Source: an uncultured Ectothiorhodospiraceae bacterium (lineage in GTDB: Bacteria > Pseudomonadota > Gammaproteobacteria > S012-40). From it: a stretch of DNA of 45,999 nt. A program made the position numbers and the translations under genes. The stretch covers positions 7,848-53,846 of the forward strand of contig CALZHW010000005.1 of NCBI GenBank assembly GCA_945787125.1. The letters are read 5' to 3'. Numbering within the stretch: position 1 is the stretch's first letter; every line of letters starts with the position of its first letter. The notes below the pieces were generated by a model. The model had not been told where the DNA came from, ran no database searches, and saw only the letters and a program-made list of their open reading frames with translations. Below are positions 812-45,117 of this stretch, piece by piece.

Positions 812-3510
812 CGGCAATCCAGTAGTTTAATCAGCGACTGTTTGAGTGAGTGCATGGTCTCATTTGAAACAGTGTCGTTAGTTTGTTTATCGCAGATAAA
901 AAATACGTCATCTACATGTGCGCCCAAAGTGACGATTTTTGCATTTTCGGTTTCTATGCCGTGTTGCATGAGCGAAAAAGCAATGTTGGAAAGTAGTCCT
1001 GGTCTATCAGTGGTGATGACTTCCATGATCGTTCTGCGATTGCTTTCGTCATGTTCCCAGGCAATGTCAGTTGTCTGGATAAAACATTCAGCGCGACGTT
1101 TTATGTTGGCATTTTTCACTCGGTTTGCCGCATGATCTTGCCCCAGTGCGTTCAGCATTTTTTGTTTTATGCGTTCAATCTGAGCCGGGTCGTGAATGTT
1201 ATTGCCGCTGTAATCAAGCACCGTGTAAGTATTAAGCGAGTACCCATTGGCGCTCGTCACAATGCGTGCTTCAACAATATTGAGATTCATATTGTCCAAC
1301 ACCCGTGTTGAGTTGACGAAAAGATTTGTTTTTACTGATGCTCTGAGAAAAATGTCCGTGCCACCGCTTTGCCCTTCAGGGTCAACATAGGTAATAACAT
1401 CCGCGTTTGGGTTCGCTAGTATCTCTTTGGTGTGACGATAGATTTCCTGTGGCGTGTAACGTAGAAAGTAAGTTTCACCCATTTGTTCCCATAGTTGCCT
1501 GGCGGCATCAAGGTCAATCTGATTTTCATTGAGTAACTGCATGCTTGCTGATTTAGCTTGTTCAATCAGATCGGCTTTTTGTAATGGATTGTTTAGTCCG
1601 CGGCGTAAGGCTTTTTGCGCTTCATGCCGCAGCGTTTTAAGCAGCGAATCTTTCCAGCTGTTCCACAAGCTGCTATTGGTGCCTCGAATATCGGCGACTG
1701 TTAATAGGTAGAGATAATCCAGTTTGACATTGTTTTCAACTTTAGCCGCGAATTCGCAAATAATATCGGGGTCGGATAAGTCTTTATGTTGTGCCGTGGC
1801 GGACATTAATAAATGATTGCGAACTAACCAGGCCACAATGTCTGTGTCATATTGACTGAGCCCATGGTTTTCACAAAACTGCCGAGCGTCATCTTCGCCC
1901 AATATGGAATGATCTCCGCCGCGCCCTTTGGCAATATCATGGTATAAACCTGCAATATATAATAGTTCAGGTTTAGGTATGGATCTCATCAATTGGCTGC
2001 AAAGTGGGAATTCATGTTGAAATTTTTTCACATAAAAACGCCGCATATTTCTTACGACAAATAATGTGTGCTCATCTACCGTATATATGTGGAAAAGATC
2101 GAATTGCATTTGCCCAACAATACGGCCAAATTCAGGCAAATATCTCGCAAGAATACCGTAACGATTCATATTGCGTAGGGCGAAAGTTACACCGCTAGGT
2201 TGTTTTAAAATTTCCATAAACAGGCTTTTACTGCGCAAGTCATTGCGAAATTCCTGATCAATTAAATGCAGGTTTTCGCGTAGCAAGCGGATTGTAGTGC
2301 TGCGAATGCCTTTCAGGTTCCTGTTTTGTTGAATAAGTAAAAAAATTTCCAGTAGGGCGAATGGATAAGAAGTGAAGGTATTTGCGTGGGTGACTTCTAT
2401 GAAATTATTAACCGATCTAAAACGACTGTTAATCGCTGCAACATTTTGTTCTATACCGTCAAATAAAATGGTTTCTTTATAATGTTGCAGTAGCATATCA
2501 TTCAGCAAGCTCAGCTGCTTTACCGTCCGATAATATTGCTTCATGAATAATTCAACGGCGAGACGATGACCATCGGCGGGTCTTGCTAAATCGTCATCGG
2601 CAAAGTCGGATTCCGCGCTTGTTTCATTTTTAAAATTGAGTTCTTTGGCAATTAATCGTTGTTGTTCAAAGCCGAGGCGGTCCTCTCTTCGATTGGATAG
2701 TTTGTGTAAAGCAAAGCGAACTTTCCATAAAAAACTTTGCCCACGTTGTAATATATCGAATTCATCTTCTGTTAGAAAACCACGGGTAACCAGATCGTCT
2801 AATGACTTATCCCCAAAGTGTCGTTTGGTTATCCAGCCTATCATGTGGATGTCACGTAGGCCGCCTGGGCTTTCTTTTATATTAGGCTCCAGGTTGTAGC
2901 CGGTATCATGATATTTCTCATAGCGTTTTTCTTGCTCCTGGCATTTTGCCTCAAAAAAATCTTTACTCGACCAGATAAGGGTGGGTGAGGTTGCTTTTTC
3001 AAAGTTTGAGTAGACGTCAGCGGAGCCGCATATTCGACGGGATTCGACAATATTAGTCGCAATGGTGATATCGTTTTTGGCCGCTTCGAAACATTGCGCA
3101 ATGGTTCGAACACTGCTGCCGATTTCCAGCCCGATGTCCCATAAAAACATTAAAAAGCCTTCGATATTTGTTTGCTGCTGAGCTATGATATCTGTCTCAA
3201 ACAGCAATAAAATATCCACATCGGAGTGTGGGTGCAGCTCTTCACGCCCATATCCTCCTACGCCAAGCAAGGCAACCGGAGTTTCTTTTGCGAAAAAATT
3301 CTTCCATGCCTTATTGATAATTTCATCGACAAAATAACTTCTCGCTCGCACCAGTAGATCAACTTCTGTGCCTTGCTCGAAATCTTGATACAATTTATTT
3401 TGAGCGGTGTTTATTGCGGCCTTATATTCAGCTATTGCTTGGGTATTGTTTTGAATATTATCAGAGAGGCTGGTTACATCGAATAGATGCGGAATGATAT
3501 TAGATTTCAA
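808..3510 (-). CDS. glnD: Bifunctional PII uridylyltransferase / uridylyl-removing enzyme
   Basis: Glutamine sensor that adds UMP to PII proteins when nitrogen is short and removes it when glutamine is high, and so sets glutamine synthetase activity and NtrBC signalling. The 900 residues match the family length. The nucleotidyltransferase motif is at residues 85-103 (GGYGRE followed by DVD, metal ligands Asp97 and Asp99), the HD hydrolase motif is at His524-Asp525 (YHDIAKGRGGDHS), and two ACT domains fill the last ~190 residues (one begins at RIVTSANG, the last at VITTDRPGLLS). The start is TTG at 3510, overlapping the map stop (TTGA); a purine-rich GAAGAAGAGA lies upstream, and no in-frame ATG exists near the family N-terminus. 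It is transcribed with map and apaH. It is functionally relevant to the nitrate assimilation genes near 38-44 kb. Confidence 0.95.
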   Translation of the reverse strand: MKSNIIPHLFDVTSLSDNIQNNTQAIAEYKAAINTAQNKLYQDFEQGTEVDLLVRARSYFVDEIINKAWKNFFAKETPVALLGVGGYGREELHPHSDVDILLLFETDIIAQQQTNIEGFLMFLWDIGLEIGSSVRTIAQCFEAAKNDITIATNIVESRRICGSADVYSNFEKATSPTLIWSSKDFFEAKCQEQEKRYEKYHDTGYNLEPNIKESPGGLRDIHMIGWITKRHFGDKSLDDLVTRGFLTEDEFDILQRGQSFLWKVRFALHKLSNRREDRLGFEQQRLIAKELNFKNETSAESDFADDDLARPADGHRLAVELFMKQYYRTVKQLSLLNDMLLQHYKETILFDGIEQNVAAINSRFRSVNNFIEVTHANTFTSYPFALLEIFLLIQQNRNLKGIRSTTIRLLRENLHLIDQEFRNDLRSKSLFMEILKQPSGVTFALRNMNRYGILARYLPEFGRIVGQMQFDLFHIYTVDEHTLFVVRNMRRFYVKKFQHEFPLCSQLMRSIPKPELLYIAGLYHDIAKGRGGDHSILGEDDARQFCENHGLSQYDTDIVAWLVRNHLLMSATAQHKDLSDPDIICEFAAKVENNVKLDYLYLLTVADIRGTNSSLWNSWKDSLLKTLRHEAQKALRRGLNNPLQKADLIEQAKSASMQLLNENQIDLDAARQLWEQMGETYFLRYTPQEIYRHTKEILANPNADVITYVDPEGQSGGTDIFLRASVKTNLFVNSTRVLDNMNLNIVEARIVTSANGYSLNTYTVLDYSGNNIHDPAQIERIKQKMLNALGQDHAANRVKNANIKRRAECFIQTTDIAWEHDESNRRTIMEVITTDRPGLLSNIAFSLMQHGIETENAKIVTLGAHVDDVFFICDKQTNDTVSNETMHSLKQSLIKLLDCR

Positions 3511-4280
3511 GGGGTTTGAATCTCTTCTTCTCGAAGGGTTAATACTTCGTAGCCTGTTTCAGTCACCAGGATAGTATGTTCCCATTGGGCTGACAATGAG
3601 TGATCTTTGGTGACGACGGTCCAATCATCTTTTAGGAGTTTGACATGACGTTTGCCAACATTAACCATGGGTTCGATAGTGAATGTCATGCCGGCTTCCA
3701 ATGTGAGTCCTGTGGCAGGTTTGCCGTAGTGCAGCACCTGAGGTTCCTCATGGAACTCTTTGCCAATACCGTGGCCGCAATATTCGCGTACAACTGAGCA
3801 GTTTTGTGCCTCTACATACTGCTGAATAATGTGACCAAGATCACCTAACTGTACGCCCGGTTTAACCATTTCGATCGCCTTCCACATGGCGGTGTGGCTG
3901 ATTTGTGCTACACGCTGGCCTTGTATTGTCGGTTTTCCAACCATAAACATTTTGCTGGTATCGCCATGGTAACCCTCTTTTATAACAGTAATGTCAATAT
4001 TAATGATGTCGCCGTTTTTCAATATCTTCTCGCTGGGAATGCCATGGCACACCTGGTAATTCAGCGAAGTGCAGATAGACTTCGGAAAGCCGCGATAGTT
4101 TAAGGGGGCGGGAATGGCATTAAGTTCATCAACAATATAATCATGGCAGATATCATTCAGCTCATTGGTTGTGATTCCGGGTCTAACATGGGACTCAATC
4201 ATGCTTAATACCTGTGCGGCTAATTTACCCGCAGTACGCATTTTTTCGATTTCTTGCTCGGTTTTGATGGTAACGCTCAT
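3507..4280 (-). CDS. map: Methionine aminopeptidase type I
   Basis: Removes the initiator methionine from nascent proteins in the cytoplasm. The 257-residue product has the five metal ligands of the family: Asp96 (INID), Asp107 (HGD), His170 (CGHGIG), Glu203 (TIEPM) and Glu234 (QWEH). The frame is open 34 codons further upstream, but the family N-terminus (VTIKTEQEIEKM) begins at the ATG at 4280, which has AGAGG about 13 bases upstream, so that start is preferred. It diverges from rpsB, as in many gammaproteobacteria, and overlaps glnD downstream. Confidence 0.95.
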   Translation of the reverse strand: MSVTIKTEQEIEKMRTAGKLAAQVLSMIESHVRPGITTNELNDICHDYIVDELNAIPAPLNYRGFPKSICTSLNYQVCHGIPSEKILKNGDIINIDITVIKEGYHGDTSKMFMVGKPTIQGQRVAQISHTAMWKAIEMVKPGVQLGDLGHIIQQYVEAQNCSVVREYCGHGIGKEFHEEPQVLHYGKPATGLTLEAGMTFTIEPMVNVGKRHVKLLKDDWTVVTKDHSLSAQWEHTILVTETGYEVLTLREEEIQTP

Positions 4281-14422: not shown

Positions 14423-14929
14423 ATGAAAATTTTATTAACAACAAGTTTATTACTATTGGCGATGATGGCGACTGCGATCAATGCAAAAGAATTAAAAATT
14501 GGTGTGCTCGACTTCGCGCGCGTGCTTGAAGAATCACCGCAGGCCGATAAAGCCCGTGTCGCTATGGAGCAAGAGTTTGCGCCGCGCGAAAAGGATTTGA
14601 TTGATGTACAAAATAAAGTTCGTGGTATGGAAGATCGACTCACGCGTGATGCAGCGATTATGAGCGATTCTGAACGGGCTAAATTAGAGCGCCAGATTAT
14701 ATCTGAAAAACGTGATTTCAAACGTAAGCAAGACGAATTTCGCGAAGATATTAATTTCAAACGTAATGAATTAGTCGAAAATTTGCAGCGTAATTTGGTG
14801 GATAAAATCCGCATTTACGCTGATGCCAAAGGCTTTGATCTACTGCTGGCGGAAGGCGTTATCTATGCGAAAGATACGCTCAATGTTACTGAAGAAGTAT
14901 TGCAACAGTTGAGTAAAGATACTAAGTAA
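14423..14929 (+). CDS. skp: Periplasmic chaperone Skp/OmpH
   Basis: Trimeric, jellyfish-like periplasmic chaperone that holds unfolded outer membrane proteins for BamA. A clear signal peptide (MKILLTTSLLLLAMMATAINA) precedes the OmpH start KELKIGVLDFARVLEES. The middle (about residues 50-125) is a charged coiled coil forming the tentacles, and the return segment carries ADAKGFDLLLAEGVIYA. Total length is 168 residues. It is directly followed by the remains of lpxD. Confidence 0.93.
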   Translation: MKILLTTSLLLLAMMATAINAKELKIGVLDFARVLEESPQADKARVAMEQEFAPREKDLIDVQNKVRGMEDRLTRDAAIMSDSERAKLERQIISEKRDFKRKQDEFREDINFKRNELVENLQRNLVDKIRIYADAKGFDLLLAEGVIYAKDTLNVTEEVLQQLSKDTK

Positions 14930-14934
14930 ATTCC

Positions 14935-15396
14935 CCGAGATAAGCACTGCTAATCCTTAGCGACTCTCGGGCTGTGCTGGTATTTAATCGAATTATTTTG
15001 CTGGTGAAAATAACGTCAATTCTCAGGCCAGCTGCCTTAGGAACGGGTATGAAATCGTAGCCAATACACCCATTGATTGCCGCGTGATAGGCGATACAAT
15101 AACCCACGATGGTGTTAAAATTGATAATCTCGTGTAAATCGGACACAATAATGAAATCGTGGTTTAACTGATTTATCTAGGATTATACTGCTATTGCAGC
15201 AGCATGAAAATGGGTAGCCACTGTACCTTGAGGGTGCTACTGACAGGACCGGGCATATTCAAATCAGTAATAATCCATGTCGGCCCAATGGCGTCGAAAT
15301 ATTACGCCTTTTCGGCAAATGAAAAAGCTTAAAAAGCGTGTTAAAGAGTTGGAAAACGAAATAAAGTCATTAAAAAAGTCATTAAAAGGGTTATAA
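14935..15396 (+). pseudogene. lpxD: Decayed lpxD (UDP-3-O-acylglucosamine N-acyltransferase) remnant
   Basis: The slot that holds lpxD in this conserved operon contains ~460 bases without a long frame. LpxD pieces can still be read in order: LSDSRAVLVFN from 14956, then ANTPID, GDTITHDGVKIDNLV (15090-15134) with a stop at 15135 where the family has Gln (CAA to TAA), IGHNNEIV after it, KMGSHCTL further on, and an intact LpxD-like basic coiled tail from 15319 to the stop at 15394-15396. The family length is about 1,020 bases, so more than half is deleted and several frame changes have accumulated. Lipid A synthesis needs this step between LpxC and LpxH, so a functional copy is expected elsewhere. 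What is seen: the fragments and their order. Inferred: replacement by a paralogue. Confidence 0.85.
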
Positions 15397-15397
15397 A

Positions 15398-15853
15398 TTG
15401 GAAACCATGGACATTAAAAAAATCATGCAGCTTTTACCGCATCGATTTCCATTTTTACTGGTGGATAAGGTTGTTGAAATTAAGCCTGGAGAAGAAATTA
15501 CCGCCGTTAAGAACATCACTATTAACGAGCCTTTTTTTCAGGGTCACTTTCCAATTAAACCTGTTTTCCCGGGTGTGCTGATAGTGGAAGCATTGGCTCA
15601 GGCTGCAGGATTGCTCGCCTTTGCCACCCAAAACATCAATTCAAATGAAGAAAACGGTGAAATTTTCTACCTGGTAGGTGTCGATAAAGCACGCTTTAAA
15701 AGACCAGCGGGTCCCGGTGATCAGTTATATTTAACGGTCACTACCACCGTCAATAAGCGCGGTGTCTGGAAATTTCAGGGTGTCGCAAAAGTTGACGGAA
15801 GTATCGTCGCCAATGCTGAATTAATGTGTGCTGTGAGAGATGCCGATCTGTGA
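15398..15853 (+). CDS. fabZ: 3-hydroxyacyl-ACP dehydratase FabZ
   Basis: Hot-dog-fold dehydratase of fatty acid elongation; competes with lipid A synthesis for 3-hydroxyacyl-ACP. The family core LLPHRFPFLLVDKV is near the N-terminus, followed by the active-site block FFQGHFPIKPVFPGVLIVEALAQ with the catalytic His and Glu. The TTG at 15398 has AAGGG seven bases upstream; the in-frame ATG at 15407 is the alternative (151 or 148 residues). It starts right after the lpxD remnant and ends in a GTGA overlap with lpxA. Confidence 0.95.
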   Translation: METMDIKKIMQLLPHRFPFLLVDKVVEIKPGEEITAVKNITINEPFFQGHFPIKPVFPGVLIVEALAQAAGLLAFATQNINSNEENGEIFYLVGVDKARFKRPAGPGDQLYLTVTTTVNKRGVWKFQGVAKVDGSIVANAELMCAVRDADL

Positions 15854-16620
15854 TTCATCCTACGGCGATAATCGATGCCACCGCTAACATAGGAACAGGC
15901 GTAGAAATTGGGCCTTATAGCGTTATTGGCGAAAATGTTGTCATAGAAGAAGGTTGTAAAATTAGCTCACATGTTGTGATTCAGGGGCCGTCTCATATTG
16001 GTAAAGACACACAAATCTTTCAGTTTTCATCCATCGGTGAAATCCCTCAAGATAAAAAATTCGCGGGTGAAGAAACTCGTTTGGAAATTGGTGAGCGAAA
16101 TGTCATACGTGAAGGCTGCACATTAAATCGTGGCACTATACAAGACAAAAAAGTCACAAAAATAGGCGATGACAATTGGATCATGGCATATGTGCATGTG
16201 GCACATGACTGCGAGATTGGCAATCACACGATATTAGCCAATAACGTCGCACTGGCCGGGCATGTGACTGTGGCGGACTATGCCATTCTGGGTGGATTTA
16301 CCCTTGTACATCAATTTTGTCGTATCGGTGCGCACAGCTTTACCGGGATGGGCAGTGCCCTCTCGAAAGATCTTCCACCTTTCGTTATGGCTTCTGGGAA
16401 TTTGGCAAAACCCTATGGTTTAAATACCGAAGGTTTAAAACGTCGGGGATATTCTTTGGACGAGATCAAATTAGTAAAACAAGCCTATAAAATTATTTAC
16501 CGCTCAGGTAATACCCTGGACGAAGCCAGGCAAGCGTTACGCGCACTTGCTGGATCCTCAAAAAATGTTGCGTTGATGTTAGAGTTTTTAGAGAACGTAA
16601 CTCGAGGCATTGTGAGATAA
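15850..16620 (+). CDS. lpxA: UDP-N-acetylglucosamine O-acyltransferase LpxA
   Basis: First step of lipid A synthesis: moves 3-hydroxyacyl from ACP to UDP-GlcNAc. The 256 residues start IHPTAIIDATANIG and form the left-handed beta-helix of hexapeptide repeats, with the catalytic His119 in the segment HVAHDC and a C-terminal helical part. The GTG at 15850 overlaps the fabZ stop and gives the family N-terminus; the frame is open eight codons further upstream, but these do not match the family. Confidence 0.96.
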   Translation: MIHPTAIIDATANIGTGVEIGPYSVIGENVVIEEGCKISSHVVIQGPSHIGKDTQIFQFSSIGEIPQDKKFAGEETRLEIGERNVIREGCTLNRGTIQDKKVTKIGDDNWIMAYVHVAHDCEIGNHTILANNVALAGHVTVADYAILGGFTLVHQFCRIGAHSFTGMGSALSKDLPPFVMASGNLAKPYGLNTEGLKRRGYSLDEIKLVKQAYKIIYRSGNTLDEARQALRALAGSSKNVALMLEFLENVTRGIVR

Positions 16621-16629
16621 TACGACATT

Positions 16630-17796
16630 ATGCTTCGTATCGGTATCGTGGCTGGAGAAAAATCCGGAGATCTCATTGCTGCTGATTTAATTCGGGCATT
16701 AAAATCACAGTTTCCTGGTGTCGTTATTGAAGGCATCGCTGGGACAGAAATGCGTAAAGCCGGTTGCCGTGCGATTTTTGATTGCGAAAAGTTAGCGGTC
16801 ATGGGGTTCACAGAAGTTATTAAACGTTTGCCTGAGCTGTTGTCAATTCGGCGACAAATTCTGCACTACTTTATCGAAAATCCACCGGATATTTTTATTG
16901 GGGTTGATGCCCCTGATTTCAATTTAGCGCTGGAACGTAAACTCAAAAAACACGCAATTAAGACGGTGCATTATGTCTCACCCTCCGTTTGGGCCTGGCG
17001 CCAATATCGCGTAAAAAAAATCGCAAAAAGCGTTGATAAAATGCTCACGTTATTTCCTTTTGAAGCTACTTTTTATCAGCAACACCAGGTGCCGGTTAAA
17101 TATGTTGGCCATCCGTTAGCTGATCAAATTCCATTGCAATGTGATACGGCTGCGGCGAGAGAAATACTTGCTGTGCCACAGGGCAAGCGAGTCATTGGTC
17201 TATTGCCAGGCAGTCGCTTCTCGGAAGTTAGTCAATTGCTTGAGTTGATGCTGGCTTGCGCGGATCATGTTAGTCAAACTGAAAAAAACGTTTTTTTCAT
17301 CATTCCCGCTGCAACACCCCAGTTAAAAACCTATATTGAAGAGCGGGTCGCAAATCGACAAAACAATATTTCCCTTAAAATTCTCGATGGTCAGGCGCGC
17401 GTTATTATGCAAGCCGCTGATGTTTTATTATTAGCCTCAGGGACTGCCGCGTTAGAGGCAATGCTTTACAAGAAGCCGATGATTGTTACTTACAAGCTGT
17501 CGGCAATCAGTTATTGGATCAGTAAAAAACTTGCTGCAGTCAGTAAAGTTTCGTTACCCAATCATCTTGATAAGTCTGAACCCGTACCTGAATATTTGCA
17601 GGATCAGGCGACGGTTGGAATGGTTGGTCCAGCCTTATTAGAACTGTTCACCAATCGTGAAGAGCAACGTGATATGTGTAAAAATTTTTTACTTTATCAC
17701 CAGCAGCTTAAGTGCAATGCCAGTGAACAAGCCGCAATAGAAATTAAAAATATGTTAAATAGTGTTATTTCATTCCCACTTGAGAAAAACCAATAA
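16630..17796 (+). CDS. lpxB: Lipid A disaccharide synthase LpxB
   Basis: GT-B glycosyltransferase (GT19) joining lipid X and UDP-diacylglucosamine at the inner membrane. The 388 residues contain the family blocks AGEKSGDL near the N-terminus, GVDAPDFN near residue 95, [12 protein letters not shown] near residue 117, and LPGSRFSEV near residue 195. It follows lpxA by nine bases and ends two bases before rnhB. Confidence 0.96.
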
Positions 17797-18457: not shown

Positions 18458-18810
18458 TTTTTCAGGCTGTTATTCATTACAATATATTGGTCACAACGTG
18501 AATTGGTTTCAAGCGGCAAAGTGATCAATAACGAGAAGGGTGCTTTGCGACAGAAGTCAGGTTTAATCCGATACAAGCTTATGTGACATTGTTTATTTAC
18601 GCGTTCGGTTTCCAGTAAAAAACTTGCTGGCTGCGTGCATCCGGTACTTGTGACTTCAAACTGTATTTTTCCCTTGCTGAGACTGTAGGAAAGCAGTGGT
18701 TCTATTTGCTTAAAAGCGTGTTCGTCAGGCTTTGCGAGTGGTTTTTGCGGCATGCATGAAATAATGCTTAGCAATGAAGAAACAAGCAGCAGGCTTTTTT
18801 TAATGTTCAT
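18439..18810 (-). CDS. Putative lipoprotein of unknown function
   Basis: The 123-residue product has a type II signal peptide with a lipobox ending at Cys19 (LLSIISC), so it is probably anchored to a membrane on the periplasmic side. The mature part has Cys58 (TGCTQPASF), Cys75 (KQCHISL), Cys88 (DFCRKAP) and Cys105 (RCDQYI), which could form two disulfides. I recognise no family. Its ATG overlaps the stop of the protease gene (TAATG on the minus strand), so the two are co-transcribed and possibly work together, for example as inhibitor or docking factor, which is inference only. The stop lies in a tandem repeat. Confidence 0.7.
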   Translation of the reverse strand: MNIKKSLLLVSSLLSIISCMPQKPLAKPDEHAFKQIEPLLSYSLSKGKIQFEVTSTGCTQPASFLLETERVNKQCHISLYRIKPDFCRKAPFSLLITLPLETNSRCDQYIVMNNSLKNKTMEK

Positions 18811-20252
18811 TACGATCTAAGCTTTACTAATTTCTGTAGTAACTTTCCACGGCTTATTAGCAGCAGTAAAATCGTTAGTAAAGATGCTGGAGCACTCCAG
18901 GCGTTATACCATTCCTTGTCAGATTTTTTTTGCTCAGTTGGGATGTCATTTTGTGGGGTATCAGTTCCAGGAATGTCACCCTCAGCAGGGTTGCCATCCT
19001 CAACAGGATTGTTTTCGGTTGCGATAAACGAATCACTTTCGCCGCTAACAATTGCTTCAATACGGTTCTTAAAATAGGGCACTCGGGTGTAGGCTTCGTA
19101 TACATTCGGTTGCGCGCAGCCAATTCCCCAGCTGGTGATGCCAGTTAAATAAAACTCGCCTTGAATTTCAATTAACAATGGGCCACCACTGTCGCCAAAA
19201 CAGGTTCCTACATTGCCTTGCTCGGGGCCAGCACAGAGCATTTCTTGGGTTATCGGGTTACTATCAGTTTGGCCAATGCTAGCGAAATATTGGTTCAATG
19301 CGGCATTGCATGTATTGTTGGAGAGTAGTGGTAATTGTACTTCATAGACGGCCTTGATGTCGTCACTGGCTGGCAATTCGTTAGGCCGCACAGCATTTTG
19401 ATGACCGCGCCCCAGCGCTGTTGCATTTTGTGCGATGTCTATGGCTGCCAATAACATCTCTTCATCTGCTAATTTCACAGGGTTCACGCCGATGGGTTCG
19501 TCTACTAGCTCCAGCAGTGCAATATCGTTGACAATATTTAATGGGTCATAGTTTTCGTGACTGATAATTCTTGCAACAGTGATGACATTGTCTTGATCTG
19601 TCACGAGATTGTGACCACCAACATTCACTGATAAGTTTTCAGCTTGAGCGCCATCAACACAATGCGCAGCTGTAACCAGCCATTTGCCACCGATATAACT
19701 CGCGCCGCAAAAGCTGCTGTCAGCCACTGAGTCTATATAAGCAACAGCAATGTCTTGTTGCAAAAGATTTAATAATGCGAGGCCAGCGTCATGATCAATA
19801 CTCACTACAGGAATATCTCCACCATCAAGACCCAGGGTTCCAAAATATGGGCCGGTTTCGTTATTGTAAATTATTGCGCCTATTCCGCCACCTCGTTCAC
19901 AACTTGCCGCTTTTTCGTAGAAAAAATTTACACCACGTTCTATGAGGCAAATGTGACCAGAAACATTTTCACAAGTAATAAACGCTTGTTGGCAGTTCAC
20001 CAATTTACCGGAAAACTGCTCGTTGGGGGCGCCGTTCATAAAATCTGCGCGATACGATTCGCCATTGGCAATGACAGCGAGATCTTTTGGCACTAGTCCC
20101 GCCATAAATAGCCAATCTCCACTAGCGGACTCTACACCGCCAACAATACGGGGTTGAATAGAGGCATTTGCGGAGAAAACTGGTATTAAACCGAGTGTTA
20201 ATATGAGTGTTATTAATATTAAGGGTTTAAAAAAGTTAGCGAAAATATTCAT
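18810..20252 (-). CDS. Exported trypsin-fold serine protease with inserted PA domain and C-terminal membrane tail
   Basis: 480 residues. A signal peptide (1-30) is followed by the activation sequence IVGG at 36-39, so it is made as a short-propeptide zymogen. The triad is His197 (TAAHC), Asp243 (NDIALL) and Ser355 (GDSGGP). Between the first strand (to about 53) and the His strand (181 on) lie ~125 extra residues resembling a protease-associated (PA) domain (HICLIERGVNFFYEKAASC, then GAIIYNN and GDIPVVSI). The residue equivalent to chymotrypsin 189 is Gly349, not Asp, so trypsin-like Arg/Lys preference is unlikely. After the protease come an acidic Pro-rich spacer (about 412-446), a hydrophobic helix (about 454-467) and a basic tail, a layout like GlyGly-CTERM proteases of type II secretion but without the GG pair. 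Confidence 0.88.
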   Translation of the reverse strand: MNIFANFFKPLILITLILTLGLIPVFSANASIQPRIVGGVESASGDWLFMAGLVPKDLAVIANGESYRADFMNGAPNEQFSGKLVNCQQAFITCENVSGHICLIERGVNFFYEKAASCERGGGIGAIIYNNETGPYFGTLGLDGGDIPVVSIDHDAGLALLNLLQQDIAVAYIDSVADSSFCGASYIGGKWLVTAAHCVDGAQAENLSVNVGGHNLVTDQDNVITVARIISHENYDPLNIVNDIALLELVDEPIGVNPVKLADEEMLLAAIDIAQNATALGRGHQNAVRPNELPASDDIKAVYEVQLPLLSNNTCNAALNQYFASIGQTDSNPITQEMLCAGPEQGNVGTCFGDSGGPLLIEIQGEFYLTGITSWGIGCAQPNVYEAYTRVPYFKNRIEAIVSGESDSFIATENNPVEDGNPAEGDIPGTDTPQNDIPTEQKKSDKEWYNAWSAPASLLTILLLLISRGKLLQKLVKLRS

Positions 20253-38411: not shown

Positions 38412-40850
38412 ATGAAAGAAAAACTAGTGTTGGTTGGCAATGGAATGGCTGGAATGCGCACCATTGAAGAGTTATTGAAGCTCGATGAAGACATGTATGA
38501 CATCTCCGTATATGGCGCTGAACCTTATGGCAACTACAACCGGATATTGCTTTCACCCGTTCTGGCGGGGGATAAAACCATTGACGAGATCATGTTGAAT
38601 ACGGATGAGTGGTATGCCGAAAACAACATCACTTTCCATAAAGGCAAAAAAATAATCAATATCGATCGTAAGAATCAAAAAGTCATCGCCGAAGATGGCT
38701 CGGAAGAGAGTTATGATCGTTTGTTGCTTGCAACGGGCTCCAACCCGTTTATCGTGCCAGTACCTGGCAGTGAATTGCCTGGCGTTATGGCATATAGAGA
38801 TATTCATGATGTTGATGTCATGCTCGAGACTGCAGCCAAGAAAAAACATGCTGTAGTTATTGGCGGTGGTTTGTTAGGACTTGAAGCAGCGAATGGTTTA
38901 ATGCTGCGTGGCATGAATGTGACCGTTGTACATCTAGGTGATGTGTTGATGGAGCGCCAAATGGACGCCACCGCAGGCGCCATGTTGAAAAAGTCGTTGG
39001 AAGATCGCGGTCTGCATTTTTTAATGAACGCTCAAACTGAAGCGATAATTGGTGAAGACAAAGTCAAAGGTGTGCGCTTTAAAGATGGCACCGAAATTGT
39101 CACTGATTTAGTCGTCATGGCGGTGGGTATCCGGCCCAATATCGAATTAGCAAAAAAAGTTGGTCTGCATTGCGAGCGTGGCATCGTGGTAAACGATACC
39201 TTGCAAACCTATGACCCAAAAATTTATGCGGTAGGTGAGTGTGTCCAGCATCGTGGTATAGCCTATGGTTTGGTTGCACCGTTATTTGAGCAGGCAAAAG
39301 TCTGTGCTAACCATTTAGTGAAGATGGGCTACGGCCGTTATTCAGGATCGGTTACTTCAACCAAATTAAAAGTCACTGGTATTGATTTATTTTCAGCGGG
39401 TGATTTTATTGGTGATGACTCCACCGAAGAAATTGTCATGAAAGATGTTAATCGCGGTGTCTATAAAAAATTGGTATTGAAAGATAATAAAATTCATGGC
39501 GCAGTGATGTACGGCGATACAGTGGATGGTGCCTGGTACTTTAAATTGCTGCGAGACGAAACCGATGTCAGTGATCTCCGTGAATCATTAATGTTCGGCC
39601 AATCACATCTCGGTGACTCCGGCCATGGTGGACAGAACGCTGCTGCCGCCATGACGGATGATATGGAGGTTTGTGGCTGTAACGGTGTGACCAAAGGCTG
39701 TATTACTAAAGAAATAGCGGCAAAAGGTTTGTTCACCCTTGATGATGTGCGAATGCATACCAAAGCGTCCGCTTCCTGTGGGTCTTGCACGGGTCTGGTA
39801 GAGCAAATAATTGCATCGACTTTAGGTGGTGATTATTCAGTTTCTACAAAAGCCAAGCCGATATGTAAATGTACCGATCATACCCATGATGAAGTCAGGG
39901 AAGCCTTTCGGACACTGCATATAACCAACGGTTTGGATGCCATGAAAAAACTTGATTGGCGCACGGAAAATGGCTGTGCTTCTTGTCGACCAGCATTAAA
40001 TTATTACGCCATCGCAACCTGGCCCGCAGAAGCGCATGATGATCCACAGTCTCGTTACATTAACGAACGGGCGCATGCCAATATTCAAAAAGACGGAACA
40101 TACTCCGTTGTGCCACGTATGTGGGGTGGTCTGACTACACCGAATGAATTGCGTGCAATCGCTGATGCGGCAGACAAATACGCAGTGCCAACGGTTAAAG
40201 TCACCGGTGGTCAACGAATCGATTTGCTGGGTGTTAAAAAAGAAGACCTACCCAAAATGTGGAAAGATTTGAACGCTGCAGGCATGGTGTCTGGTCACGC
40301 CTATGGTAAGTCACTGCGGACGGTGAAAACCTGTGTGGGTAAGGAACATTGTCGCTTCGGTACTCAGATGTCCATGGGCATGGGCGTTAGATTAGAGAAG
40401 CTCACTTGGGGTTCCTGGATGCCGCATAAATTCAAAATGGCAGTATCCGGTTGTCCGCGAAATTGCGCTGAAGCAACGATTAAAGATTTTGGTATCGTAG
40501 CAGTGGACTCCGGCTGGGAATTACATGTTGGTGGCAATGGTGGTATCAAGGTGAGGGCGACTGACTTGCTCTGTAAGGTCAATACGGATGAAGAGGTTGT
40601 TGAGTACTGTCTCGCATTCACTCAACTTTATCGCGAAGATGCACACTACCTCGAACGTACCGCCCCCTGGATTGAGCGCGTAGGTTTAACCTATGTAAAG
40701 GACATTATTGTCGAAGATGCAAAAAAACGTGCAGAGCTTGCTGCGCGATTTACCGAATCTCAACAATACGCACAAATTGATCCTTGGGCGGAACGGGTTG
40801 AAGATAACGCAAAAAAACAGGAATTCATTCCTTTGAAAAAAATAGGTTGA
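38412..40850 (+). CDS. nirB: NADH-dependent nitrite reductase, large subunit
   Basis: Six-electron reduction of nitrite to ammonium in the cytoplasm. 812 residues: an FAD/NAD reductase domain (VGNGMAGMRTIEELL at the N-terminus, VVIGGGLLGLEAANGLMLRG at about 148-167), two BFD-like [2Fe-2S] segments (CGCNGVTKGC ... CGSC and CKCTDHTH ... CASC), then the siroheme/[4Fe-4S] domain with Cys641, Cys647 (C-x5-C) and Cys681, Cys685 (SGCPRNC). GAGGCGG precedes the ATG. It is followed by nirD after four bases. Confidence 0.96.
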   Translation: MKEKLVLVGNGMAGMRTIEELLKLDEDMYDISVYGAEPYGNYNRILLSPVLAGDKTIDEIMLNTDEWYAENNITFHKGKKIINIDRKNQKVIAEDGSEESYDRLLLATGSNPFIVPVPGSELPGVMAYRDIHDVDVMLETAAKKKHAVVIGGGLLGLEAANGLMLRGMNVTVVHLGDVLMERQMDATAGAMLKKSLEDRGLHFLMNAQTEAIIGEDKVKGVRFKDGTEIVTDLVVMAVGIRPNIELAKKVGLHCERGIVVNDTLQTYDPKIYAVGECVQHRGIAYGLVAPLFEQAKVCANHLVKMGYGRYSGSVTSTKLKVTGIDLFSAGDFIGDDSTEEIVMKDVNRGVYKKLVLKDNKIHGAVMYGDTVDGAWYFKLLRDETDVSDLRESLMFGQSHLGDSGHGGQNAAAAMTDDMEVCGCNGVTKGCITKEIAAKGLFTLDDVRMHTKASASCGSCTGLVEQIIASTLGGDYSVSTKAKPICKCTDHTHDEVREAFRTLHITNGLDAMKKLDWRTENGCASCRPALNYYAIATWPAEAHDDPQSRYINERAHANIQKDGTYSVVPRMWGGLTTPNELRAIADAADKYAVPTVKVTGGQRIDLLGVKKEDLPKMWKDLNAAGMVSGHAYGKSLRTVKTCVGKEHCRFGTQMSMGMGVRLEKLTWGSWMPHKFKMAVSGCPRNCAEATIKDFGIVAVDSGWELHVGGNGGIKVRATDLLCKVNTDEEVVEYCLAFTQLYREDAHYLERTAPWIERVGLTYVKDIIVEDAKKRAELAARFTESQQYAQIDPWAERVEDNAKKQEFIPLKKIG

Positions 40851-40854
40851 GTAC

Positions 40855-41163
40855 ATGTCAGATTGGATTGAAGTAGGGTTACTAGAAGATATTCCCAAAT
40901 TAGGTTCGCGGGTGGTTGAGAGCAAAGACGGAGATATCGCAATTTTTCGAACGATGAATGACGAAATATTTGCGCTGAAAGATTCTTGTCCACACAAGCA
41001 GGGCCCTTTATCACAAGGTATTGTGCATGACAAAACGGTCACCTGTCCGTTGCATAACTGGAGAATAGAACTGGGCACGGGGGCAGTATTGGCGCCTGAC
41101 GAAGGTTGTGCTGGGACGTATGATATCAAGTTGGATGGAGCGAAAATTTTTCTAAAGGTATAG
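40855..41163 (+). CDS. nirD: Nitrite reductase small subunit, Rieske type
   Basis: 102 residues with an intact Rieske [2Fe-2S] site: Cys45-x-His47 (SCPHKQGPL) and Cys64-x2-His67 (CPLHNW). Enterobacterial NirD lacks these ligands, while assimilatory NasE-type subunits have them, so this enzyme is probably assimilatory. It starts four bases after nirB. The 89-base gap to the next gene holds a fragment of the family 2 repeat. Confidence 0.94.
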   Translation: MSDWIEVGLLEDIPKLGSRVVESKDGDIAIFRTMNDEIFALKDSCPHKQGPLSQGIVHDKTVTCPLHNWRIELGTGAVLAPDEGCAGTYDIKLDGAKIFLKV

Positions 41164-41205
41164 CGGCAATGAAAATAAATTTAAAGACTTTTATCTCGCA
41201 AGCTA

Positions 41206-41217
41206 GGACAGGCTCCT
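41206..41217. repeat. 12-bp relic of a family 2 element end
   Basis: GGACAGGCTCCT is the exact reverse complement of the end at 28892-28903, and is preceded by CTAG (41203-41206). It may be the footprint of a lost copy or chance. Confidence 0.35.
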
Positions 41218-41252
41218 GGGGTCTTCATTACGCAACTTTTTAGGCGCTGAGA

Positions 41253-43904
41253 ATGGATAATTCGGTAAAAACTATTTGCCCTTACTGCGGTGTTGGCTGC
41301 GGTGTTGTGGTGAATAAGGATAGCGACAATACATGGCAAGTGACCGGTGACGCCGAGCACCCATCGAACTTTGGTCGTTTATGTTCAAAGGGTGCGTCAC
41401 TCGGTGAAACACTGGACTTAACTGGCCGATTGTTGGCGCCGGTGGTTAATGGCAGCGAAGTGGCTTGGGATTCTGCCATACAAACGGTGGCAGATAATTT
41501 CAAACAAATTATTGCCGAGCACGGGAAAGACGCCGTCGCCTTGTATGTCTCCGGTCAGCTGTTGACCGAAGACTATTACGTCGCAAACAAGTTCATGAAA
41601 GGCTACATTGGTACGGCCAATATTGATACTAATTCACGACTATGTATGTCATCTACTGTAGCCGGTTATAAACGTGCGTTTGGTAAAGACGCTGTGCCTT
41701 GTAGTTATGAAGACTTGGAACGCGCTAAGTTAATTGTGTTGGTCGGCTCAAACACCGCCTGGTGTCACCCGGTATTGTTTCAACGTATCGTTCAAGCAAA
41801 AAAAGAAAACCCGGATTTATTTGTTGTGGTGATTGACCCACGTGAAACCAATACGTGTGATATCGCTGATATGTTTTTACCGATAAAACCCGGTACTGAC
41901 ACAATTTTGTTTAACGGCTTATTGAAATATCTGGATGCGGACGATGAACAAAATCAATTGTTCACCCAGCAATGCACACAAGGACTGGATGATTTATTAG
42001 CAATTGTTAGAGCAGATGAATACGCTATTTCCAATGTCAGTGAGCAATGCGAACTTGTCGAAGACGATGTTGCCCGGTTTTATCGATTGTTCTCGCGGAC
42101 TGAACGCGTAGTTACCGTTTTTTCACAAGGCGTCAATCAATCTTCCTCAGGCACAGACAAAGTCAATTCCATTATTAACTGTCATTTGTTCACCGGCCGT
42201 ATTGGTCGCGCAGGCATGGGCCCGTTTTCTTTTACCGGGCAATGTAACGCCATGGGTGGTCGTGAAGTAGGGGGCTTGTCCAATACTTTAACTGCGCATA
42301 TAGATTTAGAAAAAGCCGACGAGCGTGAGCTGGTGCAGCAATTTTGGCAATCGCCTTTAATTGCAGAAAGTGAGGGCTATAAAGCGGTTGAGTTGTTTGA
42401 TGCTATTGAGCAGGGCAAAGTAAAAGCAGTCTGGATAATATGTACCAATCCAGTGGTTAGTTTGCCGGATGCAGACAAGGTTAAGGCAGCTTTAAAGAAA
42501 TGTAAATTTGTTGTAGTGTCAGAATGTGTCAGCAAGACAGATACAACCGCGTGTGCCGATGTGTTGCTGCCTGCGTTAACCTGGGGAGAGAAAGAAGGCA
42601 CGGTAACCAGTTCGGAGCGTTGTATCTCACGCCAAAGAAAATTTTTACCGCCGCCAGGGCAGGCTAAAGCTGATTGGTGGATAATTTCACAAGTGGCAAA
42701 ATCAATGGGGTTTGATAATGGTTTCAATTATCACTCAGCCCATGAAATATTCAGAGAATTTGCAGCGTTATCCGGTCATAAAAATAATAATACGCGGGAC
42801 TTCGATATCTCTTTTTACAACGAGATAAATGCTCAAGAGTACGAAGCGCTGGTGCCTATGCAATGGCCAATTACCCAGGCCAAACCCAAAGGAACAGCCC
42901 GCCTGTTTGCTGATGGCAAATTCTATACAGCCAGTGGCAAGGCCAATTTTATTCCTGTAATACCGCGCTTGCCGAAAAATCCAGTCGATGAAATGTTTCC
43001 CTTTGTGCTAAACACCGGTCGAGTGCGGGATCAATGGCACACTATGACGCGCACAGGAAAAACCCCGCGTTTAGCAGAGCATACGCCAGAACCCGTTGCG
43101 GAAATGCATCCACAGGATATCAATACGCGACGGCTAGTTAATGGTTCGTTGGTGAGAGTGTTCAGTCGCTGGGGAGAAGTTATCGTCCGACTGCGCGAAA
43201 GTAGCGAGCAACGAAAAGGCTCGATATTTATCCCGATCCACTGGAACGAACAATTTGCTTCCTGCGCACGGGTTGATGCAATGGTTAATCCTGTCGTTGA
43301 TCCTGTTTCAGGTCAACCTGAGTTCAAACATACGCCAGTAGCCGTCAGGGCTTATGAGCCAGCCTGGCATGGTTTTATGCTATCGCGCCGACAAATTGAA
43401 CCATCGGCGCTGAGTTATTGGGTAAAAGCTACTGGTCATAATTTTTCTCGTTACGAAATTGCCGGTGAGCAAGCGCCGGGTGATTGGCCGGATTGGGCGC
43501 GCAGTTTTATGTGTGGTGCTGACGATGATGTGGATTGGCTAGAGTATCTGGATGTCTCTGCTCGTCGTTATAGAGGTGTTCGATTGGTCGGCAAGCAATT
43601 GGAGAGTTGTATTTTTATTGCGCCTACGCACGATTTACCCGCGAGAAATTGGTTAGCAAGTTTGTTTGCAAAAACTGAGCTTAGTGCTGATGAGCGAAAT
43701 GCTTTATTGACCGGCAAGGCACCGAGCGGACAGGTGGATAATGGCAAAATTGTCTGCGCTTGTTTTGCCGTAGGTGAAAATGTGATTAAACAAGCCATTC
43801 AGCAGCACTCGCTCGAATCAGTGCAAGAAATTGGTGAAAAGCTGCAAGCAGGCACTAATTGTGGGTCATGTATTCCGGAGCTAAAGAAAATTTTAATGCG
43901 CTAA
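41253..43904 (+). CDS. nasA: Assimilatory nitrate reductase catalytic subunit with C-terminal BFD domain
   Basis: Molybdopterin enzyme reducing nitrate to nitrite in the cytoplasm. 883 residues. The N-terminal [4Fe-4S] site is Cys9, Cys12, Cys16 and Cys44. The molybdopterin domains follow, with DTNSRLCMSS around residue 125 (Cys is the likely Mo ligand) and FTGQCNAMGGREVGG near residue 325. The dinucleotide-binding C-terminal domain starts near LNTGRVRDQWHTMTRTGKTP. A BFD-like [2Fe-2S] segment closes the protein (Cys835, Cys837, Cys870, Cys873), typical of NADH-using proteobacterial NasA, which receives electrons directly. The gene is the last of nirB-nirD-nasA. Confidence 0.95.
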   Translation: MDNSVKTICPYCGVGCGVVVNKDSDNTWQVTGDAEHPSNFGRLCSKGASLGETLDLTGRLLAPVVNGSEVAWDSAIQTVADNFKQIIAEHGKDAVALYVSGQLLTEDYYVANKFMKGYIGTANIDTNSRLCMSSTVAGYKRAFGKDAVPCSYEDLERAKLIVLVGSNTAWCHPVLFQRIVQAKKENPDLFVVVIDPRETNTCDIADMFLPIKPGTDTILFNGLLKYLDADDEQNQLFTQQCTQGLDDLLAIVRADEYAISNVSEQCELVEDDVARFYRLFSRTERVVTVFSQGVNQSSSGTDKVNSIINCHLFTGRIGRAGMGPFSFTGQCNAMGGREVGGLSNTLTAHIDLEKADERELVQQFWQSPLIAESEGYKAVELFDAIEQGKVKAVWIICTNPVVSLPDADKVKAALKKCKFVVVSECVSKTDTTACADVLLPALTWGEKEGTVTSSERCISRQRKFLPPPGQAKADWWIISQVAKSMGFDNGFNYHSAHEIFREFAALSGHKNNNTRDFDISFYNEINAQEYEALVPMQWPITQAKPKGTARLFADGKFYTASGKANFIPVIPRLPKNPVDEMFPFVLNTGRVRDQWHTMTRTGKTPRLAEHTPEPVAEMHPQDINTRRLVNGSLVRVFSRWGEVIVRLRESSEQRKGSIFIPIHWNEQFASCARVDAMVNPVVDPVSGQPEFKHTPVAVRAYEPAWHGFMLSRRQIEPSALSYWVKATGHNFSRYEIAGEQAPGDWPDWARSFMCGADDDVDWLEYLDVSARRYRGVRLVGKQLESCIFIAPTHDLPARNWLASLFAKTELSADERNALLTGKAPSGQVDNGKIVCACFAVGENVIKQAIQQHSLESVQEIGEKLQAGTNCGSCIPELKKILMR

Positions 43905-44424: not shown

Positions 44425-44500
44425 AATATGGGCAATGTCTTATCGAGAGTGTTGACAGCATGAGGTAAGGGTTGCCGTTACGGGTACTAGATGGCGCCGA
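44425..44500. repeat. Internally deleted family 1 element
   Basis: CAATATGGGCAATGTCTTATCGAGAGTGTTGACAGCATG (read in parts) matches the left arm of the copy at 26631, and GGTAAGGGTTGCCGTTACGGGTACTAGATGGCGC (read in parts) its right arm; the centre and both ends are missing. It ends ~60 bases before the hemoglobin gene and lies in its upstream region. Confidence 0.65.
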
Positions 44501-44559
44501 GTATTTGCCAGCACTTGCAGGATTTAGATTATTACTTAAACACACTAGGAGATGGAAAA

Positions 44560-45117
44560 ATGCTAAGCTTTTTGAAAAAATTATTTGGTGGTGAAAATGA
44601 ACCAACCGTAGCTACGCCTGCTGCCAAATCTGATCCTGCACCTGCACCTGCACCACAGTCTGCACCAGAGCCACAGCCTGAGCCAATGCCAACTTCTGTT
44701 GCTGAGTCGGAAAGCTCTGTTGTCGAGCAGCCGGTGGTCAAAACAGAAGTCCTGGCATCGCTTTATGAGCGTATCGGTGGCGAAGCAGCAGTAGATGCTG
44801 CAGTGGATATTTTTTATCGTAAAGTATTAGCTGATGATCGTATCAATAAATATTTTGAAGATACTGATATGGAAGCGCAAGCGCAAAAACAAAAAGCATT
44901 TTTAACGTTGGCGTTTGGCGGTCCAAATGATTATTCTGGTGCCGACATGCGTGAAGCTCACGCGAACTTGGTACAAAAAGGTCTTAGTGATGAGCATTTT
45001 GACGCGGTCATGGAAAATTTGGCGGCAACCTTAACCGAATTAAATGTGCCTGATGAATTGATTGCGGAAGCCGCTGCGATTGCAGAAAGTACACGTACTG
45101 ACGTATTGGGTCGTTAA
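44560..45117 (+). CDS. Group 1 truncated hemoglobin with amphipathic N-terminus and Pro/Ala/Glu linker
   Basis: 185 residues. Globin part 66-185: LYERIGG (68-74), Tyr86 (probable B10), FLTLAFGGP (114-122) and the proximal His134 (REAHANLV). The first 11 residues MLSFLKKLFGG form a short amphipathic segment that could bind a membrane, followed by ~50 residues rich in Pro, Ala and Glu. Such proteins scavenge nitric oxide or bind oxygen. The ATG at 44560 has AGGAGATGG upstream; an in-frame start further upstream has no support. Position after the nitrate genes fits protection from NO, which is inference. Confidence 0.9.
   Translation: MLSFLKKLFGGENEPTVATPAAKSDPAPAPAPQSAPEPQPEPMPTSVAESESSVVEQPVVKTEVLASLYERIGGEAAVDAAVDIFYRKVLADDRINKYFEDTDMEAQAQKQKAFLTLAFGGPNDYSGADMREAHANLVQKGLSDEHFDAVMENLAATLTELNVPDELIAEAAAIAESTRTDVLGR

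Follow-up and report, generated by a model that had tools for sequence, protein, structure and literature searches.

The gene lpxD is normally essential, and its place is usually constant within a gene cluster that ranks among the most conserved of the Gammaproteobacteria. The locus described here raises the question of what has become of this gene in an uncultured member of the Ectothiorhodospiraceae, and of which protein might now carry out its step in lipid A synthesis. The window (the whole stretch of 45,999 nucleotides that was analysed) carries the cluster in the order rpsB-tsf-pyrH-frr-uppS-cdsA-dxr-rseP-bamA-skp-[slot]-fabZ-lpxA-lpxB-rnhB, where the genes other than bamA, skp, fabZ, lpxA and lpxB were named by eye. 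The initial annotation had described the genes around the slot as unbroken, and this is borne out on the plus strand for skp (14423-14929), fabZ (15398-15853, with an ATG at 15407 and a TTG at 15398), lpxA (15826-16620) and lpxB (16630-17796); bamA is likewise intact. Other features of the window include a t44 RNA (RF00127; 4597-4681, 73.7 bits) directly upstream of rpsB and, by eye, a gene for a secreted trypsin-like serine protease on the minus strand shortly past rnhB (18810-20252) and one for a globin-like protein with the look of a truncated haemoglobin and an N-terminal extension rich in Pro, Ala and Glu (44491-45117), near putative nitrite and nitrate reductase genes (38412-43904).

The interval from the stop codon of skp to fabZ spans 468 bp of the plus strand (14930-15397) against a usual length of ~1.05 kb, and none of the three forward frames is open across it. 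Pieces of LpxD are nevertheless recognisable there in their proper order, spread over the three frames and confined to the C-terminal third of the protein. The best-kept piece (15036-15230, residues about 207-272) belongs to the left-handed beta-helix and lies in frame 14931, which reads RNGYEIVANTPIDCRVIGDTITHDGVKIDNLV, a TAA (15135-15137), IGHNNEIVV with the catalytic-His motif IGHN, and a second TAA (15165-15167). After a frameshift the next piece, GATDRTGHIQISNN, follows in frame 14930 (about 15233-15277), and the C-terminal coiled tail, SAQWRRNITPFRQMKKLKKRVKELENEIKSLKKSLKGL, is found in frame 14932 (15284-15396). The tail is still open, as had been noticed from the letters alone, and ends at its stop codon TAA (15394-15396) where it abuts fabZ; one might speculate that it has been retained owing to the adjacent translation start of fabZ.

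Several searches identify these pieces as LpxD. A search of the whole genome with TIGR01853 independently returned positions 15042-15230 of the window (C5:22889-23077) at an E value of 4e-10, with the two TAA codons inside the match, and a profile of gammaproteobacterial LpxDs gave 46 bits for frame 2 and 22 bits for frame 3 of the slot, with values below 0 for the reverse-strand frames. Frameshift-aware protein alignment of the slot with the operon LpxDs of relatives scored 205 (G004) and 209 (G003), compared with a mean of 28 for shuffled sequences (sd 2.9, maximum 35), 36 for the reversed sequence and 33 for the reverse complement. The initial annotation had proposed a decayed lpxD with ordered pieces in ~460 bases, and the sequence in the slot is indeed what remains of the operon lpxD, now a pseudogene. 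Its aligned stretches are 54% identical to the LpxD of G004 (58/107 residues), while intact relatives share 54-86% identity with one another over roughly the same stretches, so that the surviving remains, despite the large deletions, still fall at the bottom of the normal identity range.

N-terminal remains were sought in the ~105 bp with which the slot begins, where nothing rose above chance; the best alignment, of AVLVFNRIILLVKITSILRP with ALVVTNPYLIYARVAEILYP, scored 35, the same as the best shuffle, and is not claimed as an N-terminal remnant. A minus-strand ORF (14922-15146) overlaps the LpxD remains and found no support as a gene, and an Rfam search of the slot returned no match. A scan of the slot for promoters and terminators gave four promoter-like sites, compared with 2.2 expected, and on the minus strand two terminator-like sites, with none on the plus strand.

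A fragmented draft assembly might be suspected of having broken a working lpxD through an assembly or sequencing error. The reading frame, however, is broken by two stops as well as by frameshifts, ~40 codons are deleted just before the piece that encodes the tail, and recognisable sequence for the N-terminal ~200 residues is lost. Such damage is not the work of one error, and it lies between cleanly read flanking genes; we therefore give this explanation practically no credence.

Comparison with the family indicates what the slot would be expected to contain. Thirteen genomes were compared, including that of the window (G000), which is the sole representative of its genus. A complete LpxD with LpxA ~1 kb downstream was found in nine of the twelve relatives (G001-G004, G006-G008, G010 and G011); the slot was verified gene by gene in G004, G006, G007, G008 and G010, and in the others by the position of LpxA. 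Contig ends break the gene in G009 and G012. The N-terminal part in G009 follows skp at the end of one contig (C89), and the C-terminal part precedes fabZ at the end of another (C261). Full or broken, lpxD thus occupies the slot in 11/12 relatives, in agreement with the earlier statement that a gene of ~1 kb normally resides there. No LpxD was detectable in the twelfth genome, G005, which at 67% completeness is too incomplete to judge. Decay of the slot was seen among these genomes in that of the window alone. The relatives also amend one detail of the initial annotation, which had placed the first TAA where the family has Gln: the stop is there, but the residue at its position is His in 7/8 readable LpxDs from operons of the same family and Gln in 22/24 other gammaproteobacteria.

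The initial annotation had offered two ways in which the organism might live with a dead lpxD, namely that a second copy elsewhere took over or that the lipid A pathway is changed. The genome bears out the first of these. A search for a complete LpxD returned one, the sole other LpxD found, which lies on the minus strand of the 7,395-bp contig C173 (4465-5433) and comprises 322 aa from an MTTF start. It matches TIGR01853 over its full length with 347.9-349.9 bits (curated cut-off 242.5), keeps the N-terminal domain and the hexapeptide helix, and conserves the pair of catalytic His residues in the motifs VHIGHN and AGHIKI, as alignments with operon LpxDs and with LpxDs of solved structure show; among the latter its best match is 2iu8. 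Like the pieces in the slot, it belongs to the LpxD family of UDP-3-O-(3-hydroxyacyl)glucosamine N-acyltransferases (TIGR01853 / NF002060; structures 2iu8, 3eh0, 3pmo and 4ihf). Its identity to the full-length LpxDs encoded in the operons of its family is 33-41%. The slot remains align with it at a score of 90, far below the scores obtained with the family's operon LpxDs, which indicates that the slot once held the native gene.

That the pathway itself has been lost or remodelled, with the decay of lpxD as one part of a change by which ordinary lipid A is no longer made, would fit the death of a normally essential gene in its operon. This is very improbable, as lpxA, lpxB and fabZ are present in the window and lpxC and lpxK elsewhere in the genome with one match each, in addition to the complete LpxD and to intact BamA and Skp. 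The check covered LpxA, LpxB, LpxC, LpxD, LpxK and FabZ, and with these genes present the organism most likely still has an intact route to lipid A. The N-acyl selectivity might possibly be altered with the C173 LpxD.

The place of C173 in this genome calls for scrutiny, since the source is a draft of 321 contigs that is 94.6% complete with 3.25% contamination. A mis-binned contaminant, leaving the organism with no LpxD or with another one in the unassembled part, might also be suspected from the unlikeness of the C173 LpxD to those of the family and from its nearest named relatives, which come from Omnitrophota. An RND permease encoded on the same contig, however, shares 70% identity with its counterpart in G004, a member of the same family, which equals the divergence of core genes in the window from that genome (71% for BamA, 73% for FabZ and 68% for LpxA); the G+C content of C173 (0.36-0.46) overlaps that of the window (0.40-0.48), and the closest LpxDs are found in a gammaproteobacterial family, f91. 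Contamination therefore seems to us an improbable explanation. We take C173 to be native to the lineage of the window genome, an assignment made by composition and the kinship of one gene rather than by physical linkage to the window. The ~5% of the genome missing from the draft could conceivably hold a second intact LpxD.

The C173 gene is neither a copy nor an orthologue of the gene that decayed. In a maximum-likelihood tree it is joined with the LpxDs encoded outside the operon in f91 (the orphan LpxDs) at 100/100, gammaproteobacterial LpxDs lie across a branch supported at 100/98, and an AU test rejects its placement among them (p=1.4e-5). The clade of C173 and the f91 orphans sits amid LpxDs from outside the Gammaproteobacteria, where it has no firm sister. 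Its members share with those LpxDs a one-residue deletion (Y-AG for YSSG); this deletion and IDRGRF in place of IDRGAI both agree with the position of the C173 LpxD in the tree. They also lack the C-terminal coiled tail that is present in most gammaproteobacterial LpxDs. The C173 gene thus differs from gammaproteobacterial lpxD in the missing tail, in the one-residue deletion and in its location outside the bamA-skp-lpxD-fabZ-lpxA-lpxB operon. Among 369 gammaproteobacterial genomes, strong matches (314-365 bits) were confined to f91 and G000, with 235 bits for the next best; identities to the C173 LpxD were 53%, 52% and 46% for G223, G102 and G323 of f91. The nearest named LpxDs, from Candidatus Omnitrophota, are mostly 45-51% identical to it. 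Overall, the nearest LpxDs reach only ~50% identity with it.

An orphan LpxD was found in 5/5 f91 genomes examined, near pgpA and/or hmgL. This conserved neighbourhood suggests that the gene is old in f91, and one might therefore regard the C173 LpxD as an old paralogue (lpxD2), inherited vertically and surviving in a few gammaproteobacteria. The restriction of strong matches to f91 and G000, the absence of the orphan from all other members of the window genome's own family, the placement of the C173 LpxD among other phyla and the dissimilar neighbourhoods of the orphan in G000 and f91 all speak against such inheritance, which we consider unlikely, if slightly less so than contamination.

Family f91 also offers a view of what can happen to the operon slot where an orphan LpxD is present. 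In three genomes of genus g100 (G102, G323 and G463) the matches to skp and fabZ lie ~310, 400 and 215 bp apart with no lpxD between them, and LpxD remains, which were sought in the slots of G102 and G323, were not detectable there. Two other genomes, G223 (L167 / L178:3204-4271) and G409 (L198, about 2690-3720, minus strand), keep an operon lpxD that is in frame, divergent and below the TIGR01853 cut-off. The products have REGLAI or GEGVTI in place of xGHxxI and so are without the second catalytic His; the TIDRG motif is also altered in that of G409, and that of G223 forms the longest branch of the tree. These operon copies may be decaying or in a new role, and it seems that the same exchange of lpxD occurred separately in f91. 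As a separate observation, G102 has a further LpxD-like gene (L177:3531-4451; C27:110042-110977 of that genome), unlinked to both the operon and the orphan, which forms a long branch and joins an LpxD of Bdellovibrio.

We consider it very probable that the operon lpxD is dead and that the N-acyltransferase step is performed by the unlinked C173 LpxD, which was acquired horizontally and whose arrival was followed by the decay of the native copy. The gene would most likely have come from outside the Gammaproteobacteria, or by way of another gammaproteobacterium that already held it. A second functional LpxD would have made the native lpxD redundant and relaxed the selection on it, upon which stops, frameshifts and deletions would have accumulated while skp, fabZ, lpxA and lpxB were left unbroken, and the C173 enzyme would now run this essential step of lipid A synthesis. 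From the sequences we infer the order of these events, the direction and donor of the transfer, and the expression and activity of the C173 enzyme. A further-reaching proposal is that the orphan clade repeatedly displaces operon lpxD through an adaptive change in lipid A, the tail-less enzymes using another acyl chain or making another contact with the carrier protein and the operon copies of G223 and G409 decaying or taking on a new role; we regard this as possible but rather doubtful.

Pairs of LpxD1 and LpxD2 occur in Francisella and Leptospira. A duplication of lpxD is on record for Gloeobacter violaceus (PMC3087551). Among the genomes examined here, Desulfopila sp. IMCC35008 carries two near-identical LpxD copies (L065, L070) on its completely sequenced chromosome, separated by ~0.9 Mb. 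The pairs of Francisella, Leptospira and Gloeobacter violaceus amount to more than one LpxD per genome, whereas in the genome of the window the operon copy is dead and the orphan alone is left. Xenologous gene displacement, in which a foreign homologue settles at a new site and the native gene has decayed or gone, is a known kind of event, here of an essential gene. The present case differs from the usual one in that the remains of the resident are still visible and that the same orphan clade has apparently taken the place of the operon gene in another family as well, and it is the combination of readable remains with this apparent recurrence that is unusual. In the literature searched, we came across no description of an lpxD gene in decay at its original site.

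The locus would thus represent an intermediate in the displacement of an essential outer-membrane gene, with the resident lpxD dead and a foreign substitute identified. Family f91 supplies candidates for earlier stages, in which both copies are present, and for later ones, in which the slot is empty; both copies, pseudogene and empty slot read as a series, drawn from different families, whose order we infer. For the annotation of lipid A synthesis, the case indicates that operon context alone can mislead.
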